Positions 8,611 through 40,363 of a stretch of DNA of 40,415 nucleotides are shown here, one piece after another. The first letter of the stretch is position 1; each line of letters begins with the position of its first letter. The notes beneath the pieces were generated by a model that was not told the DNA's origin, made no database searches, and saw only the letters and a program-made list of their open reading frames with translations. The stretch lies in NCBI GenBank assembly GCA_022573815.1, contig JACZTG010000020.1, forward strand, positions 1 through 40,415. Direction: 5' to 3'. The position numbers and the translations under genes are program-made. Origin of the DNA: Candidatus Neomarinimicrobiota bacterium (lineage in GTDB: Bacteria > Fidelibacterota > SORT01).

Positions 8611-9890
8611 CTATTTTTTCTCCGATATGCCTTATAAATATCACCAAATATCGTTATCAAGATAATACTCATTGTTCCATAAACCAAAATCAGCATAGCA
8701 ATACGAGCAACATTAATTCCATTATCACTTTCACCTGTTGCCGATAGGTGAACTAAAGAAGTTGTGAAATCCGATGACGCGTTGGGATGACAACGCCCGC
8801 AGTTTTCAGATATTTTAACTGCTACTATTTCCGGTGACTCCTCTGTGAACGAGTTGATTTCATGGATTCCGTGGCATGATGAACAATTTTGAAAAGTAAG
8901 ATTCCCGTACAAACTTTTTATACCGTGAAATGACTCGATTTTTTCCGTATATCCTCTTGCATTCAGCGCAAATTGGCTTGTAATCTCTACAGGCGAATGG
9001 CATTCAAGACATTTGTCAGTTAGAAGCGCATCAGATTCTTCTTTTCTAACGAAACTAATATCAGCGTATTCATGCTCAATATGGCAATCAGAACATTTTA
9101 AATTCACATCTCCGATAACTGAACTGATTGACGCCGTTGAATGAACGCTGTTGTTGAACGAAATTAATTCAGTTGTATGGCATTCCCCGCAGAAATCATT
9201 TTCTGTTGAATAATTCTCTTTCCATTCTGCGCCGAGTTCAGCGCTTAACGAATGAATACCATGACATTCGCTACAGGTAAGCGAATTGTTATTCCCGCTT
9301 TTACTAATTTTATCGGAATGTAATCCTTTCGTAAAAAAAACGTTACCATTTTCAGGTTTGGTTTCTCTGTGAGATCTATCATCATTGCTGTCCATCGCTG
9401 CTGTTTGATGGCACTCTGTGCAGGTTGCCCATTCATTACTTTTATGGACTTTTGATAATGGATCTGAAGAACTTCTCATCCGGTGTAGAGCATGGCAATC
9501 TGAGCATTTCGGAATTGATTCAAACGAGGCAATAGATTGTGTGCCGTGCGGACTATTTAAGTAATCACTGTATTCTGTAGAATGACATTCTGAGCATTGA
9601 ACCATTCCCATTGCTTCCGGATGAGGATAGCCGCCCGGATCCGCATGACAACCCGTACATCCCATCTCATTATGCATGGAAATTTCTTTAAAATCGCCGG
9701 GCACGAGAAAGGTGAAGTACTGGTCAGTCAATTCACTTAATTTATCTATGTCGCTGTGGCATTCAAAACATCCGGAATCCTCAATAGTTTCCTGCGCTTT
9801 AGCTATAACGGGAAGTAAAAAAACGCTTTTGACCGAGATCAGAAATAATATTATCAAAAAATAACTGATACAACTCCTACGATTTGTCAT
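8607..9890 (-). CDS. Undecahaem cytochrome c with C-terminal membrane anchor
   Basis: This 427-residue protein has a signal peptide (to about residue 32) and eleven CxxCH sites, at 41, 78, 99, 129, 157, 206, 234, 266, 294, 336 and 364. A single C-terminal helix (396-415) with a basic tail anchors it facing the periplasm. The block CSDCHxxHxxRSSSDP at 129-143 is shared with the nonahaem part of the cytochrome b fusion (577-591 there), so the two are related. It abuts the tetrahaem gene and overlaps the cytochrome b gene. It probably takes electrons from the b subunit and relays them along the haem chain. Confidence 0.93.
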   Translation of the reverse strand: MTNRRSCISYFLIILFLISVKSVFLLPVIAKAQETIEDSGCFECHSDIDKLSELTDQYFTFLVPGDFKEISMHNEMGCTGCHADPGGYPHPEAMGMVQCSECHSTEYSDYLNSPHGTQSIASFESIPKCSDCHALHRMRSSSDPLSKVHKSNEWATCTECHQTAAMDSNDDRSHRETKPENGNVFFTKGLHSDKISKSGNNNSLTCSECHGIHSLSAELGAEWKENYSTENDFCGECHTTELISFNNSVHSTASISSVIGDVNLKCSDCHIEHEYADISFVRKEESDALLTDKCLECHSPVEITSQFALNARGYTEKIESFHGIKSLYGNLTFQNCSSCHGIHEINSFTEESPEIVAVKISENCGRCHPNASSDFTTSLVHLSATGESDNGINVARIAMLILVYGTMSIILITIFGDIYKAYRRKNR

Positions 9891-10451
9891 CTACGGAATT
9901 GGATGAGCTATTTTCGCCCACATTTCTTTGAAAACAAACTCTTTGGGAGTTGGACTATCGGAGTTATGACACCTCTTGCACGTAGATTCATCAGGTATTA
10001 TAAGACCTACACTTGCGGGTTCTATAGTGCCGGCTCTTAACCCTTTCATTACTTTTGATTTGTAATAATCACCGCCGGCGCCGTGACACGCTTCACATCC
10101 TACACCTTCTGTAATATCGAATTTCTTCCCTCGCAATTCCGCTGGAGCATCATAACCCGCTGTATGGCAGCGGAGACATTTAGGGTCTTCCTGTGGATTT
10201 TCCACTCCTCTTTTCTTCGCGACTTCCATTGCTTCAGGAGATCCAAGTAGCTTATAAGCTTTTGAATGAGCGCTGCCTCGCCATTTTTCGAATTGTAATC
10301 CTTTTTTTGCCTTTTTATGGCACATTTTGCACTTGGCAACGCCTATAAATTTGTGCTGTTTTTCATCGCCATCGATGGCTGATGATATTTGCGCTGTGAA
10401 TAACACCAGAAGTGCGATTATAATTATATTTATGCTGTTTCTAATTTTCAC
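9891..10451 (-). CDS. Tetrahaem cytochrome c554-like protein
   Basis: This 186-residue exported protein (signal peptide 1-25) has CxxCH sites at 41, 92, 119 and 158. The surrounding pattern FIGVAKCKMCHK...QFEKWRGSAHSKAY and EGVGCEACHGAGGDYYKSKVMKG matches the cytochrome c554 family, which in ammonia oxidisers takes electrons from hydroxylamine oxidoreductase and is common as an electron shuttle elsewhere. The start is GTG, with GGAG seven bases before. It directly abuts the 11-haem gene. A role as a soluble periplasmic carrier is inferred. Confidence 0.9.
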   Translation of the reverse strand: MKIRNSINIIIIALLVLFTAQISSAIDGDEKQHKFIGVAKCKMCHKKAKKGLQFEKWRGSAHSKAYKLLGSPEAMEVAKKRGVENPQEDPKCLRCHTAGYDAPAELRGKKFDITEGVGCEACHGAGGDYYKSKVMKGLRAGTIEPASVGLIIPDESTCKRCHNSDSPTPKEFVFKEMWAKIAHPIP

Positions 10452-10500
10452 CTTATCGCTCCAGACAACAAATATTTCTTTGTTAATTATCTATTCTTAC

Positions 10501-10863
10501 TTATTCAGCAAGGTTGTCTTCTACTACCCACTGAACGACCTTATCAATTTCTAAATCTAAATTATAAAAACCATTCATACTGCCGCCTTCTATGGATTTT
10601 TGAACCAAAGTGGACGAGGCATCGCCTGCGGTGGCTTTTGTAATAACTCCCGCGTATGTAGCCATATCGTAATTTGCCTGTGGAGTTGTTCCGGAATGAC
10701 AGGATATGCAATTTTGGTCAAATATCTCTTTCATGTCGTTAGTGTATGTTAAGTTTTCCGCAATTACTTCAGGAGGCGCATCGTTCAATTCACTACACCC
10801 CGTTTGAATCAATAATAAAACTATGGGAATCAAAGTATAAGGAAATCTAACTTTTGCCGTCAT
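10501..10863 (-). CDS. Monohaem cytochrome c lipoprotein
   Basis: This 120-residue protein has a signal peptide ending QTGC, making Cys23 the likely lipidated residue (the -3 Gln is atypical for a lipobox). A single haem site, CISCH, is at 52-56 after the helix MKEIFDQN, the usual start of a small class I-like cytochrome c. There is no obvious distal Met near the C-terminus apart from Met96, so the sixth ligand is unclear. It begins 5 bases after the stop of the 14-haem gene. A lipid-anchored carrier at the outer or inner membrane fits the context. Confidence 0.85.
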   Translation of the reverse strand: MTAKVRFPYTLIPIVLLLIQTGCSELNDAPPEVIAENLTYTNDMKEIFDQNCISCHSGTTPQANYDMATYAGVITKATAGDASSTLVQKSIEGGSMNGFYNLDLEIDKVVQWVVEDNLAE

Positions 10864-10868
10864 TTAAA

Positions 10869-12035
10869 TCAATCTCCTATATCACCGTGACAATAACCGC
10901 AAAATCCTATACCGGAGCTGAATGTTCCAACAGTATGGCAGTTATAACATAAATAATTCTGATCGGAGTGCCATTCTCCCTTCACATCGTTCATAAATCC
11001 GAGTTCATGAGTTTTAGTGTCGTTATTAGGACCAAACGTTATATCCATATGGCATTGTAAACAAACAGGATCTTCTCCATCCAAATCATGGCACGACGCA
11101 CAAAGTTCCATATCTCTTCTCGCCATTTCTCCGTGTCTCGCATTGAGCGATACCCAATCCACGCCGCCGTGCCAAGCCGGCTCAAACCGATGATCATCAT
11201 CTTCCGGATTATGGCACGTGGTGCAAAACTCGTTTGATTCATGGCAAACGGCGCAATCCGAAAATTTACCTTTTGCGTCAAATGAGTGGGTAAATCTGTA
11301 ATCCAGCTGATGCACTCTGTTTAACGCCTGCCCAACAGAGCCACCCGATGTTGTTTCATTCGGCGAATATGAATCTGATAATTCTCCACCCACCAGCACA
11401 AGCTGGTCAACATCGTGGCAATCCTGACAAAAACTCTCCTGATGGCACATCGAACAGTCATTTGTATTAAATCTTGCGTCCAGCGCATGGCTGCGAGACC
11501 AATCGGCTAAATGAGTTGAAGGCTTTAGCAATGCAATATTCGTTTCAGAATGACAGATTGCGCACTCGCTTGACGCACTTTCGTCATTATGGCATTCCAT
11601 ACATTGAGTCATTTCCGGAAGTTGCTCAGCAGCGCTATAGTCAACCTCGTTAATTCCTTTATGGCATATGATACATTCTAAATTGCTATCTTCCAGATGT
11701 AATGAATGATTAAATTTTATCTCTCTTGGTGGATTTATAAATTCCACATATTCTTCCGTAACGTGGCAATATTCACAATCGGTATCATCTTCATCATGAC
11801 ACGTATAGCACTGGGCCATTATAGGAAGTAAATTACTCTCTGCCGTCATACTACTTTCGACATTCACATGACAATCCAAACATTCTGTTCCTACTTCTTC
11901 AGCATGAAACTTATGCGAAAATATTATTACTTTAGAGCGATCCTGCTGATTATCGTATCCCTTAGCGGGTGAATAATCTCCAATTAGGAAGATTGCGACA
12001 ATTGCCACTATGGAAATGCAGTTCAAGACTTTCAC
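10869..12035 (-). CDS. 14-haem periplasmic cytochrome c
   Basis: This 388-residue exported protein has fourteen CxxCH sites (52, 76, 87, 121, 145, 158, 194, 203, 261, 271, 312, 325, 363 and 379), about one haem per 28 residues. Repeats of the c7/c3 type are visible: FSHKFHAEEVGTECLDCH and FNHSLHLEDSNLECIICH each place a HxxH before the haem site, as expected for distal His ligands. The signal peptide spans about 1-26. The GTG start overlaps the stop of the beta-barrel gene by four bases (GTGA), so barrel and cytochrome are made together. That coupling suggests a porin-cytochrome partnership, although no family match to known conduits can be claimed from sequence alone. Confidence 0.9.
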   Translation of the reverse strand: MKVLNCISIVAIVAIFLIGDYSPAKGYDNQQDRSKVIIFSHKFHAEEVGTECLDCHVNVESSMTAESNLLPIMAQCYTCHDEDDTDCEYCHVTEEYVEFINPPREIKFNHSLHLEDSNLECIICHKGINEVDYSAAEQLPEMTQCMECHNDESASSECAICHSETNIALLKPSTHLADWSRSHALDARFNTNDCSMCHQESFCQDCHDVDQLVLVGGELSDSYSPNETTSGGSVGQALNRVHQLDYRFTHSFDAKGKFSDCAVCHESNEFCTTCHNPEDDDHRFEPAWHGGVDWVSLNARHGEMARRDMELCASCHDLDGEDPVCLQCHMDITFGPNNDTKTHELGFMNDVKGEWHSDQNYLCYNCHTVGTFSSGIGFCGYCHGDIGD

Positions 12036-36005: not shown

Positions 36006-37307
36006 TTATTTATGAAAAATCCGAGGTCCCGATTCGAGTATCCTCTGAATAGCCGTATTCGCATCTTTCGATGCTTGCGCCGGTGATTTAACGCCGAAAA
36101 TTATCGGCTGCCATAATTCCCTGTTGAGAATCGTCTGAATTTCAATAGTTTTTGCCGTCATCACATGAGAAACTGAAAAGTCCAGATTATCCGCATATAA
36201 CTTTGCTTTAGGATTTTCATCAAAATAGGTTGTAAATACGGGATTAGTTGTCAAGTCTTCCCGCGCGGGAAGATAGTTGGTCAAATCTATCCAGAGGGAA
36301 TCATGTTCTCCGCTGAAATACCATTTCATGAATTCCCAAGCCTTATCCTTATTATTTGAGGATTCAAAGATCGCCATACCTTTAGAATCAGCAAGTGTAT
36401 AGATAGGCGCATCCTCCGGGTAATAATCAGGTACCAATAACGGGGCTATCTTATATTTCAGGTCAGGGTATAATTTTTTTATTCTTACCGTACTTCCTGT
36501 ACCCTTTATGGAAGCAAAGAAAACTCCTTTTTCAAATCCGTCCTGTATTTCAAATCGAGGCGCGTATCCTTCATCAAACAATCTAAAATAGAACTCGGTA
36601 ACCGCATTCCCATATTTGGTGTCAAGAAATGCCTCGTTTTCATCTATATCAATGAACGGTTCACCTCCTGATGCGCTGGCGTAAAGGGTTAGATAATCGA
36701 ACCACCTGCTGTACCACTTTGAAGAAACGTCAACCGTCAATCCATAAACCTTGTTAGGAATACATACCTTCTCCAGCAATGCAAAAAACTCACTATAAGT
36801 TCTCGGAAGTTCGGTGATTCCGAATTTATCGAGCATTTCTTCGTTATACAAGACCATCACAGGATTTGTATAGCTCGGCATCACATAAACATGTCCTTTA
36901 TAAAACCAGTTGTTCCGGACGATATTCGTCATTTTTCGCATTTCCACAACATCCCAGAAACCGGGTAACGTGTCCAGTGCGACGATTACGCCCGCATTGG
37001 CAAGCTGGGCGGCAAACCCTCCGAAGATGTTTGAAATGACATCCGGACCGGTTCTGGTGGCAATCGCCGTGAGAATTACTTCTTCAGAGGTAATACCGGC
37101 AGGTATGGTTTTCCAATCTATCTGAGTATCTTCGTGGGTGGAGTTCCATTTTTCTACTATCACTTTTTCAAATTTCGACATCTCTAAGCTCGGCGCTGTC
37201 CAATACTCAATGCCGTTGGAACCGGCATCTTTTTCTTCTGAACCGCAGGACACAAACATAGCGCATAGCGCTATTGAAATAACTCCGAATGATAAACTAT
37301 TGATCAT
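36006..37307 (-). CDS. Sugar-binding lipoprotein of the ABC transporter
   Basis: This 433-residue extracellular solute-binding protein (family 1, MalE/UgpB-like) has a lipoprotein signal ending MFVSC (Cys21). The fold is recognised from IEYWTAPSLEMSKFEKVIVE, a VYVMPSYTNPVMVLYNEEML hinge strand and the C-terminal KAWEFMKWYFSGE and QPIIFGVKSPAQASKDANTAIQ segments. It would capture oligosaccharides and deliver them to the two permeases encoded downstream. Its neighbours upstream are the GH130 enzymes. In-frame TAG precedes the ATG directly, fixing the start. Confidence 0.93.
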   Translation of the reverse strand: MINSLSFGVISIALCAMFVSCGSEEKDAGSNGIEYWTAPSLEMSKFEKVIVEKWNSTHEDTQIDWKTIPAGITSEEVILTAIATRTGPDVISNIFGGFAAQLANAGVIVALDTLPGFWDVVEMRKMTNIVRNNWFYKGHVYVMPSYTNPVMVLYNEEMLDKFGITELPRTYSEFFALLEKVCIPNKVYGLTVDVSSKWYSRWFDYLTLYASASGGEPFIDIDENEAFLDTKYGNAVTEFYFRLFDEGYAPRFEIQDGFEKGVFFASIKGTGSTVRIKKLYPDLKYKIAPLLVPDYYPEDAPIYTLADSKGMAIFESSNNKDKAWEFMKWYFSGEHDSLWIDLTNYLPAREDLTTNPVFTTYFDENPKAKLYADNLDFSVSHVMTAKTIEIQTILNRELWQPIIFGVKSPAQASKDANTAIQRILESGPRIFHK

Positions 37308-37367: not shown

Positions 37368-38258
37368 CTATAAAAAATCCAAAACTTCTTGCTTGCCAAC
37401 TGTCGCGACGCCTATAACCGTATCAGCGCCACCATAATAAACATAATAGGTGTCATCAATCTCCGCGACCCCGCAATTGAACACAACCTTAGGAACATCC
37501 CCCTCCAATTCCCATTTCTCTTCGGGTTCAAGAATCGGTTCCTCCTGCCTCGCAATTAACTTTGCCGGATCCTCTAAATCAAATAGCGCTATCCCGAGTC
37601 TATAGAACCTATCCTTATCCACACCGTGATAAAATAAAAGCCATCCTTTATCAGTCTTTATCGGAGGCGCGCCTGCACCTATCTTTTCACAATCCCACAG
37701 TCCCTTTCGCGGCTCCATAACTTTTTTATGGCCGGTCCACTCAATAAGATCGTCTGAATATCCTATCCATATGTCAGGCATGGTTCTGTGATATATGACG
37801 TATTTTCCATTTACTTTTTCCGGGAAGATAACTGCATCTTTATTTTCCATATCCGGCAGAATTATGCCAAGCCTCTCAAAATTACGAAAGTCAGTCGTAG
37901 TGGCAAGGGCAACTCTGTTGCCGGAGCCTGACCATGCGCGATTTGAAAGAGCAGTATATGTAATATGATATTTACCGTCTATCCGAGTTATCCTTGGGTC
38001 TTCACAGCCGAACCGTTCATATTCCTCCTGAGGTTCGAATACCGGCTGATCATGGCTCTGAAAACTAAAACCGTCTGTACTTACTGCATGTCCTAACGAA
38101 GAAATATAGATGTCATATTCACCGATAGCGCGGTAAAGCAAATGGGTCTTCTCACCGTCATAAACCGCGGCACAGTTAAAGACCGCGCCACATTCCCATT
38201 TATTCTTCTTTACAGGTTTCAAAATTGGATTCCCTGAATAACGTTTAAGTTTTACGAT
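37368..38258 (-). CDS. GH130 glycoside phosphorylase-family enzyme (second gene)
   Basis: This GH130 five-bladed propeller of about 296 residues includes the proposed ATC start at 38258. Family marks are NPIL (10-13), KWECGAVFNCAAVYD, the acid GCEDPRIT (Asp87, the probable catalytic Asp), KDAVIFPEKVNGKYVIYHR, GAGAPPIKTDKGWLLFYHGV and the final VFNCGVAEIDDTYYVYYGGAD. GH130 enzymes phosphorolyse (some hydrolyse) beta-1,2- or beta-1,4-mannosides. The first canonical start, TTG at 38222, would remove the NPI strand. ATC lies 5 bases after GGAGGGG, and the gene overlaps the stop of the first GH130 gene by 7 bases. Confidence 0.9.
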   Translation of the reverse strand: MVKLKRYSGNPILKPVKKNKWECGAVFNCAAVYDGEKTHLLYRAIGEYDIYISSLGHAVSTDGFSFQSHDQPVFEPQEEYERFGCEDPRITRIDGKYHITYTALSNRAWSGSGNRVALATTTDFRNFERLGIILPDMENKDAVIFPEKVNGKYVIYHRTMPDIWIGYSDDLIEWTGHKKVMEPRKGLWDCEKIGAGAPPIKTDKGWLLFYHGVDKDRFYRLGIALFDLEDPAKLIARQEEPILEPEEKWELEGDVPKVVFNCGVAEIDDTYYVYYGGADTVIGVATVGKQEVLDFL

Positions 38259-39238
38259 ATTTTCCCCTCCGAAAGTAAGTCTTCGATAAATTCATCCAAG
38301 TTAACCGAAGCAGCGCAACAAACTTTGTCCGCGGCGCCATAAAAAACTATGAGCGATTTGTCAACGACAACCATTCCTTCCGGAAATACCACATTGGGAA
38401 CATCACCATATAATTCAAAATCTTCAATCGGTTCTAAAATGGGTTCCCGCGTACGGGCCAGCACATTCCATGGCTCTTTCAAATCCAATAACGCAGCTCC
38501 AGCCCTGTAAACTTTATTATTATCAACGCCATGATAAATCAAAAGCCAGCCGGATTCCGTTTTTATGGGAGGAGGTCCGGCCCCCAGCTTATTTCCCTCC
38601 CACTCTGCTTCCGCCTTCATTACAAGCTTATGATTTGTTATCTTCTGGTCAAGGCTATCGGTGGTGGCATACCAGATAGACGGACCTGAAGTTCCGTATT
38701 TTTCTCCTACCCAGTTAGCCGGTCGATCGAAGAAAGCATATTTTCCGTTAATTTTTTCTGGGAATAATACGACATCGCGTTCATCAGCGCCATACGGGGT
38801 GATGATTCCGTAGCGCTCAAACTCCCTGAAATTTTTGATCTTAGCTAAGGCGGTTCTGGGATGCGCGCTAAATTTTGGCATCGAAAGGCCCAACCGATGT
38901 CGTACCGCACCGGGAGGATTTGGGGTTGGTGTCACAATATACGTCAGATAAAAATCTCCGTCGATTTCAGTGACCCTTGGGTCTTCTAACGACCTCTCCC
39001 ACATTTTTGCATCCGGAATCATCACAGGTTCCGATTGTCGCTCAACTAAATTTAAATCTTCATCAAATACCGCATATCCAAGATTTGAAGTGTATGGGAA
39101 ATAATCTCCCACTGCGCGATAATAAAGGTGTATTTTGCCGTCTTTATAGACTGCTGACGGATTGAAAACAGCCACAAACTCCCAATCATCCCCTCTCGGT
39201 TCTAAAATGGGATTGCCGATAAAACGTTCTAATTTAAT
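38252..39238 (-). CDS. GH130 glycoside phosphorylase-family enzyme (first gene)
   Basis: This protein has about 328 residues from the proposed ATT start at 39238. It shows NPIL (9-12), WEFVAVFNPSAVYKDGK, the EDPR motif (Asp86), RDVVLFPEKINGKYAFFDR, GAGPPPIKTESGWLLIYHGV and VFPEGMVVVDKSLIVFYGAAD. A loop with TPTPNPPGAVRHRLGLSMPKF is longer than in the second gene and may shape the acceptor site. The first canonical start (GTG 39175) would cut off the conserved NPIL and W-E region; ATT sits 7-8 bases after AGGAGA, and an in-frame TAA lies upstream. Phosphorolysis of a mannoside is the family expectation; the linkage is unknown. Confidence 0.9.
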   Translation of the reverse strand: MKLERFIGNPILEPRGDDWEFVAVFNPSAVYKDGKIHLYYRAVGDYFPYTSNLGYAVFDEDLNLVERQSEPVMIPDAKMWERSLEDPRVTEIDGDFYLTYIVTPTPNPPGAVRHRLGLSMPKFSAHPRTALAKIKNFREFERYGIITPYGADERDVVLFPEKINGKYAFFDRPANWVGEKYGTSGPSIWYATTDSLDQKITNHKLVMKAEAEWEGNKLGAGPPPIKTESGWLLIYHGVDNNKVYRAGAALLDLKEPWNVLARTREPILEPIEDFELYGDVPNVVFPEGMVVVDKSLIVFYGAADKVCCAASVNLDEFIEDLLSEGKIS

Positions 39239-39277
39239 GGTACTATCTCCTTAGTTTGTCTTTGTTTGGATTTTACC

Positions 39278-40363
39278 TTAAAATTCAAAGGCTATTGAGA
39301 AGCTTTGAGTGTTTATCAATCTTCCAAATTCCTGATAGCTATAGTCGAACTTAATGATTACAGAGTTATTAATATTATATACAATCCCTGCACCTAAAGT
39401 TAAGTTTTCTTCGCTGTCATTCAGAAAGAGATTTTTATAACCACCCCTTAAAAATAAACGCCCATCATAGGAATATTCCATTCCTAAATTCATATACTCC
39501 GAGTTGTCGTTAGGATGAGCAGCATCCACTGCGAGTGTCACTTTATTAAGCTCGCCATCGACAATATCCATCGCTAAACCGACCCGCGAAATAAGAGGCA
39601 ATGGAAAAGTATCCGTCTTTAGATTTGCTGGAATTCGGTCATTACTTCCATCTTGAGAAGGCGCTAAATCAAAATTGATAAACGTATCCTTGCCGAGCAT
39701 TTGTAACTTACCGCCAAAATTCGAAATGCTCATTCCGATCTTCATACCGTTAAATTGTGTGGTAAAGAGAGTCCCGAGGTCAAGAGCAAATCCGGTAGCG
39801 CTCATATTCCAGATATTTTGTCGAATATACTTGGTATTAATCCCGATCGAGAACTTATCCGTGAGATTCCTTGCAAAGGCAACGCCTATAGCCAGGTCGC
39901 CTACACTAAATCTTTCGCCTGTTCCTTCGGGCTTATCAACCGTTCGTACCATCATTTCTTCTGTGCTCAACGAAGTAATGCTGATCCCTAAAACACCTGC
40001 ATTGCCCATTGGAATCGCAGTTCCTAAATAATTATAATTGATTCCGGCAATCCACTCCGTGTGAATAAAAATCATATCGCTTTTCTTCAGGCGCGCTATT
40101 CCGGCAGAATTCCAATATAGCGCAGTAGCATCATCGGCAACGGCTACAAACGCACCTCCCATTCCGGTAGCCCTGGAACCAACGCCTATTTCTAAAAATG
40201 CCGCAGCCGTGGTCGCCACCTTTGAAACGTTGCCGAGAGGCTGCCCAAAGAGAGGGTATGATATGGTTAATATTCCTAAAAAGATGAAAATACGAGACAG
40301 GTTACCAATTGCTGAAGATATTCGGCTGAATATCCGTTGCTGATTTCGTCCGGAGAATGTCAT
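39278..40363 (-). CDS. PorV/PorQ-like outer-membrane protein
   Basis: This 361-residue protein has a signal peptide (about 1-40, ending PLFGQ) and the typical opening AAAFLEIGVGSRATGMGGAF and AVADDATALYWNSAGIARL of the PorV/PorQ (UPF0164) family, followed by beta-strands of a FadL-like barrel ending in SIAFEF. In Bacteroidota such proteins work with type IX secretion; in related phyla they lie in sugar or secretion loci with unknown role. Its ATG overlaps the stop of the upstream gene (ATGA), so it belongs to the same transcript. Confidence 0.9.
   Translation of the reverse strand: MTFSGRNQQRIFSRISSAIGNLSRIFIFLGILTISYPLFGQPLGNVSKVATTAAAFLEIGVGSRATGMGGAFVAVADDATALYWNSAGIARLKKSDMIFIHTEWIAGINYNYLGTAIPMGNAGVLGISITSLSTEEMMVRTVDKPEGTGERFSVGDLAIGVAFARNLTDKFSIGINTKYIRQNIWNMSATGFALDLGTLFTTQFNGMKIGMSISNFGGKLQMLGKDTFINFDLAPSQDGSNDRIPANLKTDTFPLPLISRVGLAMDIVDGELNKVTLAVDAAHPNDNSEYMNLGMEYSYDGRLFLRGGYKNLFLNDSEENLTLGAGIVYNINNSVIIKFDYSYQEFGRLINTQSFSIAFEF

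Follow-up and report, generated by a model that had tools for sequence, protein, structure and literature searches.

In Escherichia coli, the unusual AUU start codons of infC and pcnB are rare and regulatory. Non-canonical initiation has also been described in Staphylococcus aureus, where cvfC1 starts at AUU and both ccpN and infC start at AUA; the available text of that report lists only four such sites and states that S. aureus and B. subtilis share the AUA codon of ccpN (PMC13009471). As far as the accessible part of a further study goes, reading of AUU by the CAU anticodon was disfavoured by IF3 in a reconstituted system (PMC10158994). A literature search combining Candidatus Neomarinimicrobiota with "start codon" or "translation initiation" found nothing relevant.

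The window analyzed here (40,415 nt, the entire contig 20 of a draft genome of 2.39 Mb in 65 contigs) comes from a bacterium placed in Candidatus Neomarinimicrobiota by its relatives. As shown in Table 1, it carries two adjacent genes whose products score far above the curated cutoff of 26 bits of the GH130 family model. The best NCBIfam model, the beta-1,2-mannobiose phosphorylase equivalog NF052550, gave 241.7 bits for gene 1 and 394.4 bits for gene 2, both below its cutoff of 450. The best solved homologue of gene 1 is a 1,2-beta-oligomannan phosphorylase, in an alignment that begins at residue 1 of gene 1, and that of gene 2 is a beta-1,2-mannobiose phosphorylase. Permeases and a substrate-binding protein are encoded downstream of the pair. 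A tRNA gene lies right at the contig edge (positions 39-122) and scores 54.6 bits, exactly as much as a tRNA near the end of another contig (G000:C4:146215-146298); these are perhaps copies of a repeat that broke the assembly.

Table 1. Features of the GH130 locus (window coordinates) and other genes of the source genome lacking a usual start codon.
Feature	Position	Strand	Start codon	Basis or state in relatives
Gene 1, GH130, 328 aa from ATT	38252..39238	-	ATT	PF04041 175.4 bits; dN/dS 0.10-0.20
Gene 2, GH130, 296 aa from ATC or 295 aa from GTA	37368..38258	-	ATC or GTA	PF04041 248.7 bits; dN/dS 0.05-0.07
Sugar-type ABC substrate-binding protein, downstream neighbour	36006..37307	-	ATG	PF13416
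PorV/PorQ-family protein, upstream neighbour	39278..40363	-	ATG	NF033709 218.1 bits (cutoff 90)
Putative start codon of gene 1	39236..39238	-	ATT	ATG in 12 of 13 readable relatives
Gene 1 Shine-Dalgarno site AAGGAG (8 nt upstream of ATT)	39247..39252	-		Read from sequence
Candidate start of gene 2 (choice of the sequence-only reading)	38256..38258	-	ATC	Read from sequence
Codon of gene 2 homologous to the start in relatives, overlapping the gene 1 stop TAA (38252-38254)	38253..38255	-	GTA	Relatives
Gene 2 Shine-Dalgarno site GGAGGGG (distance to ATC 5 nt, to GTA 8 nt)	38264..38270	-		Read from sequence
M28-type lipoprotein, source genome			ATA	G002 orthologue ATG
Gene at L056 +15657, source genome			near ATT	G002 ATG
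Deacetylase-like gene, L056 -13765, source genome			not assigned	G002 GTG
HdrC-like protein, source genome (L051)			CTG	TTG and ATG in relatives
TrmA-like protein, source genome			CTG	TTG in relatives
Two exported proteins, source genome			ATC (or GTT in one)	
Sensor kinase, source genome			ATA	
infC, source genome			ATT or ATA	In-genome precedent

Both GH130 genes appear to be functional and to start at near-cognate codons, namely AUU in gene 1 and AUC or the next codon, GUA, in gene 2. The 5' region of gene 1 reads TAA (39253-39251), GGA GAT AGT ACC, ATT (39238-39236), AAA TTA GAA CGT TTT ATC GGC AAT CCC ATT, and the earliest in-frame ATG, GTG or TTG is GTG 39175 (codon 22). In gene 2 an in-frame TGA is followed by GGAGGGG, 5 nt and ATC GTA AAA CTT AAA CGT TAT, and the earliest usual start is TTG 38222 (codon 12 counted from GTA). 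The sequence-only reading had proposed that both conserved N-termini lie ahead of any usual start codon, each behind an in-frame stop and a well-placed Shine-Dalgarno site, and that the aspartates of the EDPR motif fall at residue 86 (from ATT) and 87 (from ATC). All of this was confirmed, the place of the starts being fixed by relatives.

Sixteen related loci were found, three of which (L046, L049 and L050) have no readable start and were left out of the counts. None of the 13 readable relatives has ATT at the start column of gene 1; the single one without ATG there (L045) has CTG in this column and ATG two codons upstream. The source genome also contains a paralogue of gene 1 (L002, G000:C24:215-1186; 84% identical, near a contig end), with GTG at the homologous position and ATC directly before it (ATC GTG). 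Of the 12 loci readable for gene 2, 11 have ATG or GTG in the column of GTA 38255; the remaining one, MT.SAG.2, an independently assembled single-cell genome of another genus, has GTA. The conservation expected of a regulatory non-canonical start was therefore not seen, with ATT recurring at none of the 13 loci and GTA at one of the 12. The proposed check of orthologues for the same codons thus spoke against a conserved codon in gene 1, while the ATC-GTA pair of gene 2 did recur.

The start of gene 2 was placed by the sequence-only reading at ATC 38258. That a non-usual codon is used stood up to comparison, but the codon aligned with the start of relatives is GTA 38255, one codon later. In MT.SAG.2 gene 2 reads TAA ATC GTA AAA CTT, and its earliest usual codon lies 38 codons after GTA. 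Given the stop before ATC and the absence of a usual codon over this distance, the start of the gene in that genome must be ATC, GTA or something more exotic. In gene 2 of sister genome G003, ATC likewise stands before a normal start (ATC ATG), as it does in the gene 1 paralogue, so ATC may be a mere spacer, and an old one, in gene 2 as well. GTA has likely descended from GTG. With respect to the CAU anticodon, ATC has a mismatch in its third base alone, which favours it, and GTA combines a third-base mismatch with first-base wobble; homology to the starts of relatives favours GTA. Gene 2 would thus initiate at one or the other, and ATC is not its certain start.

Analysis of substitution rates indicated that the N-termini are translated. 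Whole-gene dN/dS against three sister genomes was 0.10-0.11 (gene 1) and 0.05-0.07 (gene 2), that of gene 1 against its own paralogue was 0.20, and pN/pS of codons 2-22, which extend just to GTG 39175 in gene 1 and beyond TTG 38222 in gene 2, was 0.03-0.21. This purifying selection on the N-termini makes decay or error unlikely. Initiation further downstream, at GTG 39175 and TTG 38222, would have the merit of using the earliest usual in-frame codons, yet it would cut off an N-terminal segment that is under selection and present in the solved homologues, and in MT.SAG.2 it would have to skip 38 codons of gene 2; we regard it as extremely improbable. A sequencing or assembly error at both start codons is conceivable in a draft genome of this many contigs, but the identical ATC-GTA in an independent assembly, as well as several more intact frames with unusual starts, makes it very improbable. 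Sequencing error, decay and downstream starts were accordingly rejected on the strength of the orthologues and the selection, and both unusual starts are very likely real.

Approximately a third of the source genome (843 kb, made up of the window, one locus and 40 stretches) was surveyed for genes in which a conserved N-terminus or a signal peptide is encoded with no ATG, GTG or TTG ahead of it. For comparison, 798 kb of sister genome G002, 250 kb of E. coli and 400 kb of G008 and G018, which belong to a different family of the phylum, were read as well. Gene names in the survey were assigned by reading the sequences by eye, except for infC, which was found with Pfam IF3 models. This analysis revealed eight further genes without a usual start in the source genome, plus infC (Table 1), and four in G002 (PepQ-like, gatB, UbiA-like and PorV-like). 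In G002 gatB (L253), the first usual codon comes 34 codons after the conserved GLEVH, and AGGAG is located 7 nt before ATC; gatB starts with ATG in G003 and in the source genome. Three genomes of two genera, G002, G003 and G001 (L214, L215 and L217), have no usual start near the N-terminus of the PepQ-like gene, which has GTG in the source genome and ATG in four genomes of outgroup families. Most of the unusual codons are one base from ATG, GTG or TTG and change between close relatives; two of the eight genes of the source genome and the UbiA-like gene are without a clear Shine-Dalgarno-codon pair.

Several candidates were discarded. In the source genome, a usual codon can serve at L104 +5123, L108 +10094, L056 +17572, L058 +13717 and the PorV-like L108 +7843, and for L051 a start at ACT was given up because orthologues indicate CTG. 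In G002, L139 -9165 (minus strand 9165-10971) proved to be a frameshifted gene whose N-terminal part continues in another frame, and L102 -13922 was dropped since it resembles a broken frame.

By eye and not blind, and omitting infC and the two GH130 genes that prompted the survey, we counted 8/627 genes in the source genome, 4/524 in G002, 0/249 in the other family and 0/181 in E. coli. The difference between the family (12/1151) and the controls (0/430) gives a Fisher p of 0.02 for these non-blind, curated counts. Among 182 E. coli genes inspected by eye infC alone qualified, in a set that included one stretch picked for containing it; the E. coli scan recovered infC and also picked up the yedS pseudogene and the frameshift of prfB. 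Automatic counting alone gave no excess, either of frames whose first 40 codons hold no usual start (7/630 in the source genome, 11/524 in G002, 5/249 in the other family, 5/182 in E. coli) or of genes with a coding score of at least 5 upstream of the earliest usual start (5, 3, 0 and 3, respectively). Of 144 orthologue pairs between the source genome and G002, 10 showed no usual codon on the source side up to nine codons from where the relative starts; five of these source genes, including the two prompting GH130 genes, were judged real by eye. Scoring of codons by their Shine-Dalgarno context was weak on its own, ATA and ATT leading with 8 genes each versus 5 for AAA and TTT. The G008-G018 pairs (median 86%) are too similar for upstream conservation to be judged. 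Taken together, a family-wide looseness of start codons in this one Candidatus Neomarinimicrobiota family is probable.

The components of the initiation machinery were also inspected. IF3 is encoded in all five genomes of the family, which excludes its loss as the cause, and the aligned sequences look intact, including the tyrosine taken as Tyr75. An unusual initiator tRNA is not indicated by the one found, which carries the anticodon CAU (within GGGCTCATAACCC) and looks ordinary. The acceptor end of this initiator-type tRNA-Met (L187) was paired by eye as C1/U72, still mismatched as in initiators, where C1-A72 is usual.

In 16S rRNA, the checked P-site positions and the anti-Shine-Dalgarno core match E. 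coli, and no family-specific change was detected at 1338/1339, 790, 926, 966, 1400 or the anti-Shine-Dalgarno sequence. Within a very conserved stretch, however, positions 700-702 (E. coli numbering) are CAU instead of the usual GUA (G700C/U701A/A702U) in the source genome (L265, G000:C8:3183-4752) and in G003 (L264). The site is contained in 24 of the 245 genomes of the phylum, as GTAGA in 21, ATAGA in one and CATGA in these two, which belong to different genera. The change is thus present in 2/2 family genomes with the site and 0/22 others of the phylum, and represents one event in one clade, no 16S having been recovered from G001, G002 and G004; 76 further 16S positions also differ. According to the available text of PMC5037330, IF3 protects G700, U701 and G703; the IF3 residue that stacks on nucleotide 701 ahead of full tRNA acceptance is Tyr75, and its mutants lose fidelity. 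Contact between IF3 and h23 at 700-703 also appears in the accessible part of PMC4611024. Since the change lies inside the IF3 footprint and covers the nucleotide involved in this stacking, relaxed proofreading by IF3 is proposed for the family. The altered 16S rRNA would weaken the h23-IF3 contact, initiator complexes on mismatched codons would be rejected less strictly, and weak start codons might thereby still yield enough protein. As the cause of the looseness this is a sharp yet tentative hypothesis, built on one correlation in one clade.

In the reading that we consider the better supported, start codons in this family drift by a single base from AUG, GUG or UUG, and the resulting codons are tolerated; the GH130 pair are two of many cases. 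Its extension, a ribosome evolved towards weakened IF3 proofreading, on which AUU, AUC, AUA, CUG and perhaps GUA would be ordinary starts of housekeeping as well as metabolic genes, gatB of one genome among them, is possible and held with reserve. The sequence-only reading had suggested that expression is held low on purpose. A regulatory device of this kind, in which weak, IF3-sensitive initiation keeps GH130 levels low as with infC and pcnB, could account for unusual codons behind good Shine-Dalgarno sites in both genes of one operon and for the ATC-GTA shared with MT.SAG.2; moreover, AUU and AUA gave approximately 10% of AUG activity in S. aureus reporters, by the available text of PMC13009471. 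Lower expression of the GH130 genes is thus plausible. However, the codon of gene 1 is unconserved, its paralogue has GTG, and unrelated genes of the genome and family also have unusual starts, which lineage-wide looseness fits better than a GH130-specific switch. We therefore consider such a device unlikely, and a purpose specific to the GH130 pair lacks support.

It is also possible, if somewhat doubtful, that the codons drift neutrally under ordinary initiation, a slow-growing lineage keeping weak starts in little-used genes on an unchanged ribosome. The single-base distance of most codons from a usual start, their turnover between close relatives, the ordinary-looking initiator tRNA and the retention of IF3 throughout the family all agree with this, but gatB of G002 and the PepQ-like gene (three sisters) are not obviously dispensable, and the 16S change falls within the IF3 footprint.

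If tolerated drift with relaxed proofreading is correct, the stringency of start codons is an evolvable trait of a lineage, a natural rRNA variant sits precisely at the contact whose alteration in laboratory mutants of IF3 impairs fidelity, and the old question of why bacteria keep to AUG, GUG and UUG becomes directly testable in E. coli ribosomes. Gene finders limited to ATG, GTG and TTG would truncate or miss such genes. Prodigal is designed to disregard ATA, ATT and CTG (PMC2848648, in the text available), so the environmental genomes of this clade would then carry wrongly shortened proteins.

The enzymes closest to genes 1 and 2 among solved structures are the GH130 1,2-beta-oligomannan and beta-1,2-mannobiose phosphorylases (9fj8 and 7fip, respectively); both gene products fall below the NCBIfam equivalog cutoff. 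With infC and pcnB of E. coli the GH130 genes share a start other than AUG, GUG or UUG behind a Shine-Dalgarno site, and infC of the source genome itself has ATT as one reading of its start; here, by contrast, sister genomes differ in these codons, which are also seen in unrelated genes. The AUU and AUA starts with strong Shine-Dalgarno sites of S. aureus cvfC1, ccpN and infC are similar in kind, whereas at least 11 sites, mostly unconserved, were found by eye in a third of the present genome, and the ATT of gene 1 differs from the conserved AUA of ccpN. The IF3 Tyr75 fidelity mutants and the 700-703 footprint concern the same h23-IF3 contact, as far as the available texts describe it (PMC5037330, PMC4611024); in this family it is the rRNA side that is altered, in nature, with the tyrosine retained and the effect predicted from sequence.
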